Below the pieces are notes generated by a model. The model was given only the letters and a program-made list of their open reading frames with translations, was not told the DNA's origin and made no database searches. A stretch of DNA of 64,000 bases from Clostridia bacterium (lineage in GTDB: Bacteria; Bacillota; Clostridia; Oscillospirales; RGIG5554): contig JAFWAE010000009.1 in NCBI GenBank assembly GCA_017507855.1, positions 1-64,000 on the forward strand. The letters run 5' to 3'. The translations under genes were made by a program, and so were the position numbers. Numbering within the stretch: position 1 is the first letter of the stretch; each line of letters starts with the position of its first letter. Of this stretch, positions 7,214 through 10,417 are shown one piece after another.

Positions 7214-9316
7214 TTATTTTAACGAAATTTTAAGGCACTTCGTTCCGGTAAGTTGGCAACTTAAAGAATCCGGCTGATGTCCTCCTACAAAAAGCCAAAT
7301 ACTTCCGTCTGCTTCAACTCGCTCACCGGTCTCCAGAACTGCTTTCAGCCAATATGAATCAATTTCTATTTCGGTGGAAACCTTTTTAAAGGGCTTGAGT
7401 GTAACAGCTTGTACTGAGCACAGCTGGTAATTGGGCGTTATAGTTCGGCTGTCGCTTATTTTAGTATAGACCTGTACCTTTTCAATTGTTTCAAATTTGC
7501 CTTTGTTGATTATATCAACACGGATCTTAACCGTTTTTGCGTCAGTAGATAACACGTTAAGATTTGCATATTCTATTTTACTGAATCCTAACCCAAAACC
7601 AAAAGGAAACAGAGGCTCCTCTTCGATATAACGGTACGTTCTCCCTTTCATAGAGTAGTTGGTTGTTTCAGGAAGAAAATTTTCTTGCTTATAGAATGTA
7701 ATTGGCAATCTTCCGGAAGGAGAAAATTTTCCGTTTAGCATTTCTGCAACGGCCAGTCCTCCTAAAGCTCCGGGATACCATCCTTGAATGATGGCCTTGG
7801 CATGAGAGTTGATTTTGTTTCCTAAATCAACCGAGCTTCCGCTTAGTACTACTACTACCAAATTTTTGCAAATGTCGCAAATCGCTTCAGCAAGACGGAT
7901 TTGTGTTTGAGGTAAACTGGTTAATTTTCTGTCACCGCCTGCGGCAAATTCATTCTCAAAATTTAATTCCTCTCCTTCAATATTACGGTCTAATCCAAGA
8001 CAAAGCACCGTAAGATCAGCTTCGCTAGCAGCTGCAAGCCCTTCGCTCCTTAAGTTTGTGAATCCACTCCCATCGCCCATTTTTTCTTTCCAGATCAGCG
8101 ATCCGTTTGCTACTGAAATTTTGGATTCATTAAAGGTTCGCCGCATACCTTCTGCCACCGTAATGTACTCCGAAGCACGGCCGTTATAATTCCCTTCCAG
8201 GGCAACAGTGGAATTTGCATTTGGACCTATAACGGCAATCCTTTTGTATTGTCCGTCTGCAATTGGCAAAAATTCATTTTCATTCTTAAGCAACACTAAC
8301 GATTGCTTGGCAGTTTCATAGTTCAAACGCTTGTGTTCTTCGCAATCTAATTTGCTGTAAGGAATATCCAAGTAGGGACGTTCTTTCTCAAATTCACCAA
8401 GCAAAGCTCTTACAGTATAAAGTCTTTCAACAGAGGCATCAATGTCGTCTTCGGTGATGAGATCTTCTTCATAAGCATCTATTAAATGAGCGTAAGCCTC
8501 TCCGCAGTTGAGGTTGCAGCCTTTTTGTAAGGCAATGGCAGCTGCTTCCTTCATAGTTTCAACGAAATGATGATGTTCACTGATATCTGCAATAGCGCCG
8601 CAATCCGAAACAAAATAGCCGTTGAACCCCCATTTCTCTTTCAATACATGCTCCATAAGATAATTGTGGGCACAACAAGGTTCACCGTTTGTGCGATTAT
8701 AAGCCCCCATGATTCCGATTACGCCTGCATTCACAGCATATTCAAAAGCGGGAAGATAAGTTTCCCAAAGATCCTTCATGCTTACTTGAGCATCAAAAGA
8801 ATGCCGCAAGTTTTCAGGCCCGGAATGTACAGCAAAATGTTTGGCGCAAGCAGCCGATTTAAGATATTGTCCTGTTCCTTGTAAACCTTTGATGTAAGAA
8901 ACGCCCATAATCGAAGTCAGGCAAGGGCATTCTCCGTAGGTTTCCTGACCTCTTCCCCAACGAGGATCCCTGAAAATATTGATATTCGGTGTCCAAAAAG
9001 TTAATCCTTTGTAGATATCATAATCATTAAATTCAACGCTTTTATTGTATTTGGCTCGCGCTTCGGTAGAAACAGCGTCGGCAACTTGGTAGATCAGATT
9101 CGGGTTAAAAGTTGCAGCCATGCCTATGGCTTGAGGAAAAACCGTAGCAATGCCTGCACGTGCAACGCCGTGGGCAGCTTCGTTCCACCAATTGTATTCT
9201 TTAATGCCAAGTCGTTCAATAGCAGGGGAGTTGAAAACCAATTGAGACATTTTTTCTTCAACCGTCATTTTGGAAACCAATTCTTTGGCTTTTTTTACAG
9301 CGTTTTCAAAATTCAT
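7214..9316 (-). CDS. Glycoside hydrolase family 3, beta-xylosidase/beta-glucosidase-like
   Basis: A 700-residue GH3 enzyme with the full architecture. The barrel domain has EAAHGVARAG, TFWTPNINIFRDPRWGRGQET and KHFAVHSGPE. The nucleophile Asp lies in GYFVSDCGAI. An alpha/beta sandwich domain includes IAVIGPNAN, and a fibronectin-III-like C-terminal region follows. The pattern MGAYNRTNGEPCCAH resembles bacterial and plant-type beta-xylosidases, but beta-glucosidase is possible. It has no signal peptide. AAAGGAG sits 7 bases before the ATG. It is the first gene of a two-gene operon with the GH2 enzyme, behind a good promoter and a leader of roughly 110 bases. Confidence 0.9.
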   Translation of the reverse strand: MNFENAVKKAKELVSKMTVEEKMSQLVFNSPAIERLGIKEYNWWNEAAHGVARAGIATVFPQAIGMAATFNPNLIYQVADAVSTEARAKYNKSVEFNDYDIYKGLTFWTPNINIFRDPRWGRGQETYGECPCLTSIMGVSYIKGLQGTGQYLKSAACAKHFAVHSGPENLRHSFDAQVSMKDLWETYLPAFEYAVNAGVIGIMGAYNRTNGEPCCAHNYLMEHVLKEKWGFNGYFVSDCGAIADISEHHHFVETMKEAAAIALQKGCNLNCGEAYAHLIDAYEEDLITEDDIDASVERLYTVRALLGEFEKERPYLDIPYSKLDCEEHKRLNYETAKQSLVLLKNENEFLPIADGQYKRIAVIGPNANSTVALEGNYNGRASEYITVAEGMRRTFNESKISVANGSLIWKEKMGDGSGFTNLRSEGLAAASEADLTVLCLGLDRNIEGEELNFENEFAAGGDRKLTSLPQTQIRLAEAICDICKNLVVVVLSGSSVDLGNKINSHAKAIIQGWYPGALGGLAVAEMLNGKFSPSGRLPITFYKQENFLPETTNYSMKGRTYRYIEEEPLFPFGFGLGFSKIEYANLNVLSTDAKTVKIRVDIINKGKFETIEKVQVYTKISDSRTITPNYQLCSVQAVTLKPFKKVSTEIEIDSYWLKAVLETGERVEADGSIWLFVGGHQPDSLSCQLTGTKCLKISLK

Positions 9317-9436
9317 GTTTTTTGCTCCTTTTATTAAAAACTATACTCTTACAGTGAAATCGTTATACATACTAATGAAGTACGAAACATATGTTGCGGA
9401 GGCCAATGTGTCCCATCAATACTTTTCACAAGCGTA

Positions 9437-9465
9437 ATTATATCACACACATGTAAATGTTTCAA
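9437..9465 (-). promoter_or_regulatory. Promoter of the GH3-GH2 operon
   Basis: On the minus strand, TTGAAA and TATAAT are separated by exactly 17 bases, a near-consensus housekeeping promoter. No clear operator was recognised in the leader. Confidence 0.75.
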
Positions 9466-9596
9466 TATACTTTTTCAATTGGTAATAAGATATCACAAAA
9501 ACTCTATTTCTTCAACGAGATTTAACAAAGTCGCAGGTTCAAGACCAAAAGGTAAGGAAAAGGTGTAATGGTGAAAGAAGTCGCTTTTTACAAAAA

Positions 9597-9628
9597 ACAA
9601 AAAAGCCCTTGAAAATCAAGGACTTTTC
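9597..9628 (-). terminator. Terminator-like hairpin closing the hairpin array
   Basis: On the minus strand, AAAAGTCCTTG / CAAGGGCTTTT (one mismatch) is followed by a T-rich run. It is the far end of the structured segment that begins at the tRNA-Arg terminator. Confidence 0.65.
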
Positions 9629-9670
9629 GTGTTAGGGTGCAAATGCAACTTTCCGTTTGCGCGAAGGCAA

Positions 9671-9803
9671 CATCATTGATGCGAAGCATCACATCGTTGG
9701 CGCAGCCACATCGTTTTGTGTCCGCAAGCGGAATGATGTTTTTGCTTTGCAAAAAATGATGTTGACCGCAAGCGGTCAAACGATGTTGTGTCCTTGCGGA
9801 CAC
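9671..9803. repeat. Array of six small hairpins separated by an ACATCRTT spacer
   Basis: Six short stems lie in about 130 bases: GATGC-GAA-GCATC, GGC-GCA-GCC, TCCGC-AA-GCGGA, TTTTTGC-TTT-GCAAAAA, GACCGC-AA-GCGGTC and GTGTCC-TTGC-GGACAC. They are separated by copies of ACATCATT/ACATCGTT. The three left copies point one way and the three right copies are inverted (AATGATGT/AACGATGT), so the whole segment is a loose large palindrome. It has no protein-coding logic. I recall similar hairpin strings in intergenic regions of other Clostridia, so this may be a non-autonomous repetitive element; that link is from memory. Confidence 0.75.
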
Positions 9804-9809
9804 AAACAC

Positions 9810-9847
9810 AAAAAGAAAGACACGATTTTCATCGTGTCTTTCTTTTT
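9810..9847 (-). terminator. Terminator of tRNA-Arg
   Basis: A perfect 17-bp stem (AAAAAGAAAGACACGAT and complement) with a 4-nt loop starts directly after the tRNA CCA end on the minus strand. Confidence 0.85.
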
Positions 9848-9921
9848 GGCACCCCCAACAGGAATCGAACCTGTAACTAACCCTTAGGAGGGGTTTATTA
9901 TATCCATTTAACTATGGGGGC
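9847..9921 (-). tRNA. tRNA-Arg (anticodon CCU)
   Basis: A 75-nt cloverleaf can be drawn. Acceptor GCCCCCA pairs with TGGGGGT, the D arm is GTTA/TAAT, and the anticodon stem AACCC/GGGTT encloses the loop CTCCTAA, giving anticodon CCT. The T arm ACAGG-TTCGATT-CCTGT follows, and CCA is encoded. It reads AGG codons. It has its own promoter and terminator. Confidence 0.95.
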
Positions 9922-9959
9922 GGGAAGTGGGCAAGACGTATTGAGCTTGCTCACGGGGT

Positions 9960-9989
9960 ATTATACTGTAAAACTTTCTTTTTTGTCAA
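9960..9989 (-). promoter_or_regulatory. Promoter of tRNA-Arg
   Basis: TTGACA and TATAAT on the minus strand with an 18-base spacer, about 40 bases before the tRNA. It overlaps the 3' end of ruvX. Confidence 0.8.
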
Positions 9990-10417
9990 GAGTTTGAGGA
10001 GCTTTTGCGGTGTTTTCGCTCCAAATAATCTTGCAGAATGATCTCGGCAGAAAGGGTATCTACCACGTTTTTGCGCTTTTGCCCGAAAGTGCGCGTGTCC
10101 TGCAGAAAATGATGGGCGGAAACGGTGGTCAGCCGTTCATCGTAAAGCTCAATGGGCAGGGAAGTGTGTTCCTTAAGCTGTTCGATAAAACGGGCGGTTT
10201 TTTGCGCTCGAAAGCCGGCGCTTCCGTCCATGTTCAGGGGATTTCCCACTACGATCAGTTCTACTTGATGCTGTGCGGCCTTTTGAGCCACCTTTTTAGC
10301 CGTTTCGGCAATACATTTTTCATGGACGGTCTCCAAGCCCGAGGCAAGCGTTTCACTTGCATCACAAACAGCCAATCCTGTGCGGCTGTCTCCAAAGTCT
10401 ACTCCCAAGATCCTCAT
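9986..10417 (-). CDS. ruvX: Putative pre-16S rRNA nuclease / Holliday junction resolvase RuvX (YqgF)
   Basis: A 143-residue protein of the YqgF family, which trims the 5' end of 16S rRNA and has been proposed as a Holliday junction resolvase. The RNase H-like fold is visible: GVDFGDSRTGLAV with the first catalytic Asp, VVGNPLNMDGS, and DERLTT with the acidic residue. I start it at the ATG at 10417 (MRILGVDFG), not the upstream 10435, because this ATG overlaps the TGA of the preceding gene in an ATGA junction, with GGAAGGGAG upstream. It is the last gene of the crp-rodA-csaB-ruvX operon. Confidence 0.92.
   Translation of the reverse strand: MRILGVDFGDSRTGLAVCDASETLASGLETVHEKCIAETAKKVAQKAAQHQVELIVVGNPLNMDGSAGFRAQKTARFIEQLKEHTSLPIELYDERLTTVSAHHFLQDTRTFGQKRKNVVDTLSAEIILQDYLERKHRKSSSNS

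Follow-up and report, generated by a model that had tools for sequence, protein, structure and literature searches.

A hairpin array beside tRNA-Arg in a Clostridia bacterium appears to belong to an undescribed family of terminator-associated cassettes linked to PF05635

The window analysed here, a stretch of 64,000 nucleotides (nt) from a Clostridia bacterium (contig JAFWAE010000009.1 of assembly GCA_017507855.1), carries at 9652-9806 an array of six short stems, each of different sequence, joined by ACATCRTT linkers of which three run forward and then three inverted. The array lies between the terminator of a tRNA-Arg(CCT) gene on its right and a second terminator-like stem on its left (~9599-9632). 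It is a real member of what seems to be a family not described before, made up of hairpin-array cassettes that lie at terminators and are tied to PF05635 proteins, and it is probably the hairpin-array module of a mobile gene cassette. As read from the sequences, elements of this family recur right behind intrinsic terminators, often those of tRNA genes; the fuller ones consist of a hairpin array whose linker is particular to the family and which is mostly split into two inverted halves, followed by a putative promoter and one or more genes, and one recurrent first cassette gene encodes a predicted four-helix-bundle protein of PF05635 (IVP/Avd-like). Additionally, different families occupy the same tRNA site in related species, and a duplicated terminator bounds some copies. 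There is good support for the mobility of the family and for its link to the protein; the way in which it moves, we infer.

The window copy is read as a non-autonomous or decayed cassette at tRNA-Arg(CCT) in which the array and both terminators were kept, because a PF05635 gene, a recognisable promoter, an intact outermost stem, a terminator duplication and a family-linked next gene are all missing from it. PF05635 is an old orphan family for which structures (2rld, 2gsc) and links to rRNA intervening sequences and to the Avd protein of diversity-generating retroelements (DGRs) had already been published, and the finding that, in one order, most of the PF05635 genes examined go with arrays of hairpins or repeats whose linkers are specific to the lineage, and half go with tRNA genes, makes the role of these proteins directly testable. 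Moreover, strings of hairpins between genes, a class present in gut Clostridia, would be explained as mobile cassettes carrying other genes. No description of such arrays or of a link between them and PF05635 was encountered in the open-access literature, subscription papers and preprints lying outside the search, and nothing alike is described in the accessible part of a survey, published in 2008, that covered the stem-loop families of 40 genomes, two Clostridium species included (PMC2267715).

The array in the window and its copies

The original prediction had described six hairpins with inverted ACATCRTT spacers between two terminators, and this description was borne out, the linkers, the stems, the tRNA (by ARAGORN) and both terminators having been located as follows:

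~9599-9632, minus strand: second terminator-like stem, distal end; not a sequence copy of the tRNA-proximal terminator
9652-9806, no strand assigned: hairpin array of six stems, linkers forward in the left half and inverted in the right half
9652-9669, plus strand: outer end CCGTTTGCGCG...GCAAC, common to other copies (CCGTTTGCGCGWAGCGCA); stem degenerate in the window copy
9670-9677, plus strand: linker ACATCATT
9678-9690, plus strand: hairpin GATGCGAAGCATC, loop GAA; an identical unit occurs in other genomes
9691-9698, plus strand: linker ACATCGTT
9699-9707, plus strand: hairpin GGCGCAGCC, loop GCA
9708-9715, plus strand: linker ACATCGTT
9720-9731, plus strand: central hairpin TCCGCAAGCGGA, loop GCAA
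9732-9739, minus strand: inverted linker, plus-strand reading AATGATGT
~9740-9755, minus strand: hairpin TTTTGC/GCAAAA
9755-9762, minus strand: inverted linker, plus-strand reading AATGATGT
9762-9779, minus strand: hairpin TTGACCGC/GCGGTCAA
9779-9786, minus strand: inverted linker, plus-strand reading AACGATGT
9786-9805, minus strand: hairpin TTGTGTCC/GGACACAA, minus-strand loop GCAA
9809-9848, minus strand: tRNA-Arg terminator, directly adjoining the tRNA 3' end; its 18-bp arms pair perfectly, and it is symmetric, with an A-run as well as a T-run
9847-9921, minus strand: tRNA-Arg(CCT), the gene adjoining the element (ARAGORN; Rfam tRNA match)

The right-hand stem is assigned as the tRNA-Arg terminator because ARAGORN places tRNA-Arg(CCT) on the minus strand directly beside it, and the terminator of this tRNA is placed likewise in two further loci (L118 and L199). 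The window copy thus shows the features by which the array family is defined here, namely ACATCRTT-linked hairpins, inverted halves and a position behind a terminator. The prediction had also set the structure apart from a clustered regularly interspaced short palindromic repeats (CRISPR) array, with which the findings agree: a CRISPR array was rejected on its anatomy, no search for cas genes having been made, since it is the short linker that is conserved, the variable part is palindromic and the direction flips at the centre.

The word ACATCRTT is not unusual by itself, since its 8 occurrences in the window, against 4.17 expected, were reached in 7 of 100 shuffles. Six of these eight copies are packed within 117 nt in the order of three forward and three inverted, and the two-linker pattern gave 17 matches in the bacterium's own genome and none for the reversed control. 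It was also verified that folding is far beyond that of shuffled sequences, with z-scores of -9.4 and -8.5 as RNA and of -8.1 and -7.9 as DNA, to which the terminator stems within the folded stretches contribute.

Copies in this genome and in relatives, for which a search had been proposed, were found, so that in this respect the array is not a single occurrence. Seven array loci are present in the own genome, two on contig C50 (the window copy and one at 118.8 kb) and one each on C33, C34, C41, C42 and C53. Two polarities were observed, forward-then-inverted in both C50 arrays and inverted-then-forward in those of C33, C42 and C53, and one-direction arrays also occur among the copies. Across the order, the two-linker pattern was matched in 80 of 295 genomes versus 13 of 295 for the reversed control, some of the listed matches enclosing no hairpin. 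A scan of GTDB contigs with the same pattern returned at least 119 stretches. Among the matches listed, varying stems were found in records titled Clostridia, Clostridiales, Oscillospiraceae, Ruminococcaceae, Ruminococcus, Eubacterium and Faecalibacterium prausnitzii (L146); many of these arrays come from ruminant gut, and three contigs of one unclassified metagenome-assembled genome are added to them. In other taxa, the listed matches proved to be tandem repeats whose interiors are nearly identical; a lax test scored five of these matches (L064, L072, L075, L110, L161) as hairpins. As a separate observation, a second hairpin array with GATGAAATC linkers shares an intergenic region with a ACATCATT array on contig C41 of the own genome (G000:C41:12190-12360, L010), a PF05635 gene lying ~2.5 kb away.

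In about 40 arrays read with their flanks, a recurrent plan was recognised in which a gene, often a tRNA gene, is followed by an intrinsic terminator, the array, an outward-facing promoter and a further gene. This plan is not universal, as in L105, L124 and L097, where no tRNA or terminator is evident at the array end. Among the 51 arrays whose flanks are long enough, copies with and without a protein gene being pooled, 28 have a terminator-like stem no more than 90 nt from one of their ends, compared with 6 of 124 positions taken at random, and 17 have a tRNA gene no more than 220 nt away. Where their bounds are visible, the cassettes measure about 0.2-1.3 kb, and their cargo includes a GIY-YIG/DUF4357 protein (Pfam) as well as acetyltransferase-like and MazG-like proteins (sequence reading). 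The linkers are constant within an array and differ among families, ACATCRTT, ATATCAT, ATTTCAY, ATATAAC, ACTTCAC, CATCAC, AATTCA, ATATCGM and GCTAAAT being among those found.

Linkage of the arrays to PF05635 proteins

The gene following the array in three loci (L197, L203 and L208) encodes a protein of PF05635, the family of the 23S rRNA intervening-sequence protein, with E-values of 1e-25 to 1e-28. This family was matched in 50 of 98 genomes of the order, 47 of them over the curated cut-off, and the resulting set of 96 loci provided 91 distinct upstream regions (L208 and L228 being the same gene, and short PF05635 fragments not all being included). Hairpin density peaks in the 300 nt upstream of these genes, at 1.30-1.87 per 100 nt against 0.37-0.52 in shuffles. 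At least three perfect hairpins lie upstream in 69 of the 91 loci versus 37 of 109 control open reading frames (ORFs), a 7-mer repeated at least four times in 64 of 91 versus 11 of 109, and either hairpins or repeats in 81 of 91 versus 41 of 109 (p 1.7e-14), the controls being mechanical ORFs of at least 120 codons from the same loci, some spurious or close to other arrays.

The same association was observed at the genome level. PF05635 was present in 22 of 24 genomes with the ACATCRTT pattern versus 28 of 74 others (p 2.3e-6); in 20 of 20 versus 30 of 78 (p 1.4e-7) when four genomes were dropped whose listed matches lacked a hairpin (G042, G079, G080) or whose match was not listed (G047); and in 18 of 18 versus 32 of 80 (p 8.8e-7) when only genomes with a match seen listed were counted. 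The removal of four genomes was uneven, as G056 and G086 were retained with matches likewise not listed, and the third test excludes both. In the same three genome sets, reverse transcriptase showed no association with the pattern (p 0.61, 0.58 and 0.45), and RVT_1 was found neither in the own genome nor in G003, G014, G041 and G046, each with 4-7 PF05635 matches. Dependence on a reverse transcriptase was rejected for lack of association with the arrays.

It was further examined how the linkers are distributed over a tree of 90 PF05635 proteins, built by a quick method from few columns and with many open forks, on which 54 rows could be labelled. Linker class tracks this tree overall, the 14 classes, defined after the arrays had been read, needing 16 changes on the labelled rows; once the rows without a label were counted as a fifteenth group, 25 changes were needed against a shuffled mean of 51.9, and none of 200 shuffles was as low. 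Individual classes do not all cluster: CATCAC taken alone needs 2 changes versus a shuffled mean of 2.0. The ACATCRTT rows stand in two places of the tree, one with forward-then-inverted arrays (L197, L203) and the other with inverted-then-forward arrays (L208, L233), as judged by eye; next to the former, L267 and L277 have ACATCRTT-type linkers by eye that fall below the counting threshold and were left unlabelled. The clades mix genomes from different families. Agreement between linker and tree is what would be expected if each protein reads its own array.

The own genome has three PF05635 genes, none on the contig of the window. Two are preceded by hairpin arrays with other linkers, and the third (L218) stands behind a repeat-rich palindrome and was scored as having neither hairpins nor repeats in the upstream test. 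At this third locus (G000:C13), PF05635, acetyltransferase-like and deaminase-like genes, named by sequence reading, are split by three GATATCTAAATCGGTGCAA-type copies (~1260, 2390 and 3005), possibly a second type of cassette array. Elsewhere, a tRNA-Leu cassette copy in G046 (C78, L314), compared with L251, retains the array and is without ~340 bp of the PF05635 gene region, which shows a route by which protein-less arrays can arise.

The AlphaFold2 model of the L197 protein consists of four helices (mean predicted local distance difference test score 95). In Foldseek searches it matched 2rld of the S23 family with a template-modelling (TM) score of up to 0.95 by target, 2gsc with up to 0.88, and the DGR protein Avd (4dwl) with 0.84, a root-mean-square deviation of 2.0, an E-value of 0.13 and 9% identity; sequence profiles from the PF05635 protein reach 2rld and 2gsc and not Avd. 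The resemblance to Avd is also noted in a passage of PMC10053308, and it concerns the proteins of relatives, as the window copy has none. The elements share with the 23S rRNA intervening sequences that carry an S23p/IVP ORF the PF05635 family and the character of a structured selfish element; the excerpt seen of PMC4990558 places PF05635 relatives inside rRNA, gives the function of the family as unknown and quotes an early suggestion that mobility depends on the ORF. They differ from intervening sequences in standing behind tRNA and other genes, the window copy behind tRNA-Arg, rather than within 23S rRNA, and in having a multi-hairpin array, family-specific linkers, a promoter and cargo genes; a PF05635 gene on the element, typical of intervening sequences, is present in relatives and absent from the window copy. 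With DGRs the elements share the Avd-like fold, and their hairpins resemble the DNA hairpin of variable stem and GRNA loop that the available text of PMC3240598 gives as the DGR target; the elements differ in carrying many hairpins themselves instead of one at the target, and in having no reverse transcriptase in the own genome or in association.

Relatives of the protein also occur outside the order. Of 27 plasmid records with a PF05635 relative, five were read; short tandem repeats, not linker-spaced hairpins, precede the gene in those of Treponema, Bernardetia, Euhalothece and Chlorohelix, and a weaker repeat in that of the clostridium Monoglobus. On the basis of these five records, repeats may be what generally lies upstream, with hairpins as one of the forms that they take. 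In L393, L395, L396 and L398 (Spirochaetota, Bacteroidota, Cyanobacteriota and Chloroflexota), PF05635 is preceded by short tandem repeats, such as (TTAGTGA)n in L395. A scan of viral contigs with one PF05635 protein, aimed at a viral vehicle, gave no relative; two unannotated human-faecal records labelled as phage encode PF05635, and the one read (L397) has an array of another linker class.

Target sites and the proposed mode of movement

Upstream of PF05635, the end of a same-strand tRNA gene is no more than 500 nt away in 43 of 86 loci (one gene being twice in the set) versus none of 86 for the opposite strand, and a tRNA within 500 nt downstream was found in 3 of 91. Twenty tRNA species are used as sites over all linker classes. 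Other elements stand at the 3' end of a protein gene, which sequence reading identifies as guaA for L217 of the own genome and as 23S rRNA methyltransferase-like for L275 and L300.

The tRNA-Trp gene of one genus was informative in this regard. In G033 it is followed by an array and PF05635, and in G201 by the same terminator without an array, the two genomes matching over 834 bp at 95.6% and 116 bp at 96.6%. In G219 the same tRNA has an array of another class, the start of which is also present in G082, a second tRNA-Trp copy in G108 has a third class, and in G068, G181 and G052 a plain terminator was found within the 330 nt read. Beyond PF05635 and an acetyltransferase-like gene (sequence reading), G033 has a second terminator copy, which agrees at 95% with that of G201 over 40 nt that take in the loop; the distal terminator looks like the original one, because it shares its loop with G201, and the tRNA-proximal copy has another. 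Similarly, at tRNA-Leu(TAA), G003 and G064 are alike up to the tRNA 3' end and then have different terminators, arrays and cargo, and G027 has no array in a rearranged setting.

Duplicated ends were found in other cassettes. A direct or inverted repeat spans the two sides of the protein gene in 28 loci, many of these repeats being array pieces; by reading, the direct repeat is a tRNA-end, terminator or gene-end stretch in L257, L248, L277, L285, L281 and L300. In L204 the tRNA-Gln terminator recurs (39 nt, 95% identity) about 1.2 kb on, past an array and cargo ORFs among which no PF05635 was recognised. Contig C53 of the own genome has the order tRNA-Ser, terminator, array, 180-codon ORF, terminator copy and second array, that is, tandem cassettes. 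A far-side repeat of the terminator or tRNA end was seen in G033, L257, L248, L204 and C53. The unoccupied tRNA-Trp terminator, the alternative elements at one tRNA and the duplicated terminators together indicate site-specific insertion. The comparison of flanks for precise insertion that had been proposed thus yielded unoccupied and alternative sites and duplicated terminators, and no empty site with both flanks intact.

In the mechanism that we infer, each unit of linker and hairpin would be bound in a set direction by the cognate PF05635 protein. The protein would bring the two inverted array halves together and dock them on the palindromic terminator hairpin, where some enzyme would join the cassette.

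Two further observations concern these sites. The tRNA segment is inverted relative to a neighbouring gene between related species, in G027 versus G003 (L315, L251) and G201 versus G033 (L392, L391). Upstream of the tRNA-side terminator in L203 and L281, and also in L204, there are blocks with an inverted tRNA T-arm; L203 and L281, from different genomes, have a common stretch GACCGAGCCCGCAGGCGAGAA before the tRNA 3' end, perhaps another small palindromic element inside tRNA genes.

Probable action as folded DNA, and alternative explanations

The hairpin loops were compared after 50 loci of the GTDB scan had been removed by hand from the loop, stem-pair and terminator counts, their matches resembling tandem or coding repeats without varying hairpins (several of them from Clostridia or Bacilli). 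Among 255 distinct units, 193 have a stem with a loop of 3-4 bases and 62 do not. On the strand reading ACATCRTT, 109 loops are GNA or GNNA and one is the reverse (TNNC). No class is as frequent as the three-base GNA loops, with 66 of 193 hairpins. Under a looser pairing count, 170 of 209 units are closed by a C-G pair, and the 1084 stem pairs of these units comprise 1025 Watson-Crick, 18 G-T, 7 A-C and 34 other pairs. Across linker classes, loops of the GNA/GNNA type in either direction were found in 179 of 356 array hairpins versus 73 of 562 hairpins elsewhere in the same loci. According to the portion of PMC4686876 available, GNA and GNNA loops on G-C stems form exceptionally stable DNA mini-hairpins. 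DNA is favoured because of this stability and because DGR targets require a DNA hairpin with a GRNA loop, whose stem sequence may vary (PMC3240598, in part), and the array would accordingly act as folded DNA.

Several observations weigh against the reading of the array as a module of a mobile cassette. Clean empty sites with both flanks intact were looked for at tRNA-Leu, tRNA-Trp and tRNA-Cys (the Cys relatives not having been read closely) and not found; at the unoccupied and alternative Leu and Trp sites the flanks are rearranged, and G201 has its flanking gene turned round with respect to the tRNA and a different sequence past the terminator. An enzyme for cutting or joining was not identified. 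The arrays without an evident terminator or tRNA count in the same direction, as do the 10 of 91 PF05635 loci with neither hairpins nor repeats upstream and the presence of a PF05635 gene beside ACATCRTT linkers in only 5 of 20 array genomes (hand count over fetched loci). For the window array no cognate PF05635 gene was seen in the own genome (86% complete), because its three genes belong to other linker classes or are unlabelled, and the two terminators of the window are not copies of each other. As regards the tree, linker classes were delimited after the fact, physical linkage on one element, that is, co-inheritance without binding, gives the same agreement, and the ACATCRTT class of the window is not significantly clustered when taken alone (4 changes versus 4.9 on average in shuffles, 39 of 500 being as low). 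In the optimum fold predicted for the plus strand, the left and the inverted right half pair with one another, the linkers too, to give one long imperfect palindrome instead of six hairpins, and the predicted minus-strand folds are mixed. Confidence is slightly lowered by this fold and by the unclustered ACATCRTT class. Finally, GNRA tetraloops (36) exceed GNYA (20) and G-T mismatches (18) exceed A-C (7), which leaves the RNA level open.

In this regard, the array could work as RNA, either as a structured non-coding RNA or as a 3' untranslated region reached by read-through past the tRNA terminator, and be bound by PF05635 as in 23S rRNA intervening sequences. The strong RNA folding, the near confinement of loops to one strand relative to the linker, the tetraloop and mismatch biases just given and the PF05635 relatives that PMC4990558, as far as available, locates inside rRNA would all suit it. 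However, the prevalence of three-base GNA loops suits DNA, G-T pairs are only 18 of 1084 beside 34 other mismatches, the inverted halves place the favoured hairpins on both strands, arrays are frequently behind terminators, and in Rfam over 9300-10100 only the tRNA reached the gathering score. This explanation is held to be unlikely.

About equally improbable is that the cassettes are satellites of ordinary integrative elements, inserted at tRNA 3' ends by an integrase acting in trans, with PF05635 as cargo or accessory factor. The 3' ends of guaA, rumA and tRNA genes are integrase hotspots, and the sites used here are tRNA 3' sides and gene 3' ends, with direct repeats that contain a terminator; in common with tRNA-associated integrative elements, insertion is at the tRNA 3' side, direct repeats end some copies, and cargo is carried. 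One integrase normally has one site, whereas twenty tRNA species are used here over all linker classes, and what is duplicated, in the cases read, is the terminator of the target itself instead of a fixed core. The present elements also differ in their size of ~0.2-1.3 kb and in that their repeats contain the terminator of the target. No integrase was noticed in the cassettes read, a genome-wide integrase survey not having been made.

Repetitive extragenic palindromes (REPs), with their REPIN and bacterial interspersed mosaic element arrangements, moved by a Y1 transposase (REP-associated tyrosine transposase, RAYT), resemble the arrays in their short oriented hairpins, inverted pairs and many intergenic copies, and REP hairpins, too, have a short guide foot on their 5' side (PMC6006769, in part). 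Y1_Tnp was found in 13 of 24 array genomes versus 23 of 74 before genomes were dropped (p 0.038), but in 9 of 20 versus 27 of 78 (p 0.27) and 8 of 18 versus 28 of 80 (p 0.31) in the stricter sets, and it is absent from the own genome (86% complete) and from array-bearing G041 (98%), G058 (99%) and G017 (100%). In addition, the GTAG/GTGG foot given for REPs in the cited excerpt is lacking, the ACATCRTT linker preceding each stem; the arrays are linker-spaced and multi-stemmed, one linker type is common to several families, and a Y1 transposase is not needed. REP/RAYT was rejected as the main account because of the absence of Y1 from the own genome and the weak co-occurrence, leaving it a very small probability. 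Of the origins that had been suggested for the array, the non-autonomous element therefore stands, given the copies in genome and relatives and the alternative and unoccupied sites, and the site for a REP-type transposase does not. Host-selected insulator or terminator clusters, inherited vertically, are just as hard to credit, since the frequent terminator-like stems at array ends (28 of 51 versus 6 of 124) would fit them but unoccupied and differently occupied sites within one genus, tandem copies, patchy distribution and PF05635 linkage do not.

Returning to the mobile-cassette reading, a broader and more speculative extension, which we regard as possible but doubtful, is that PF05635/Avd-like proteins would be the specificity factors of widespread cassettes moving as folded single-stranded DNA, each lineage reading its own linker-hairpin code and targeting a terminator hairpin without a reverse transcriptase or a dedicated recombinase; rRNA intervening sequences and the Avd of DGRs would then be offshoots of the same machine.

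Regarding the surroundings of the window array, no terminator duplication and no direct repeat of the tRNA or terminator end at the far side was detected around it, and the promoter stretch present in other copies is absent. The next gene encodes, by sequence reading, a GH3-like hydrolase with no known link to the array family. In addition, positions 9529-9540 (AGTCGCAGGTTC) are 83% complementary to 9867-9878 within tRNA-Arg, possibly a tRNA remnant beside the array.
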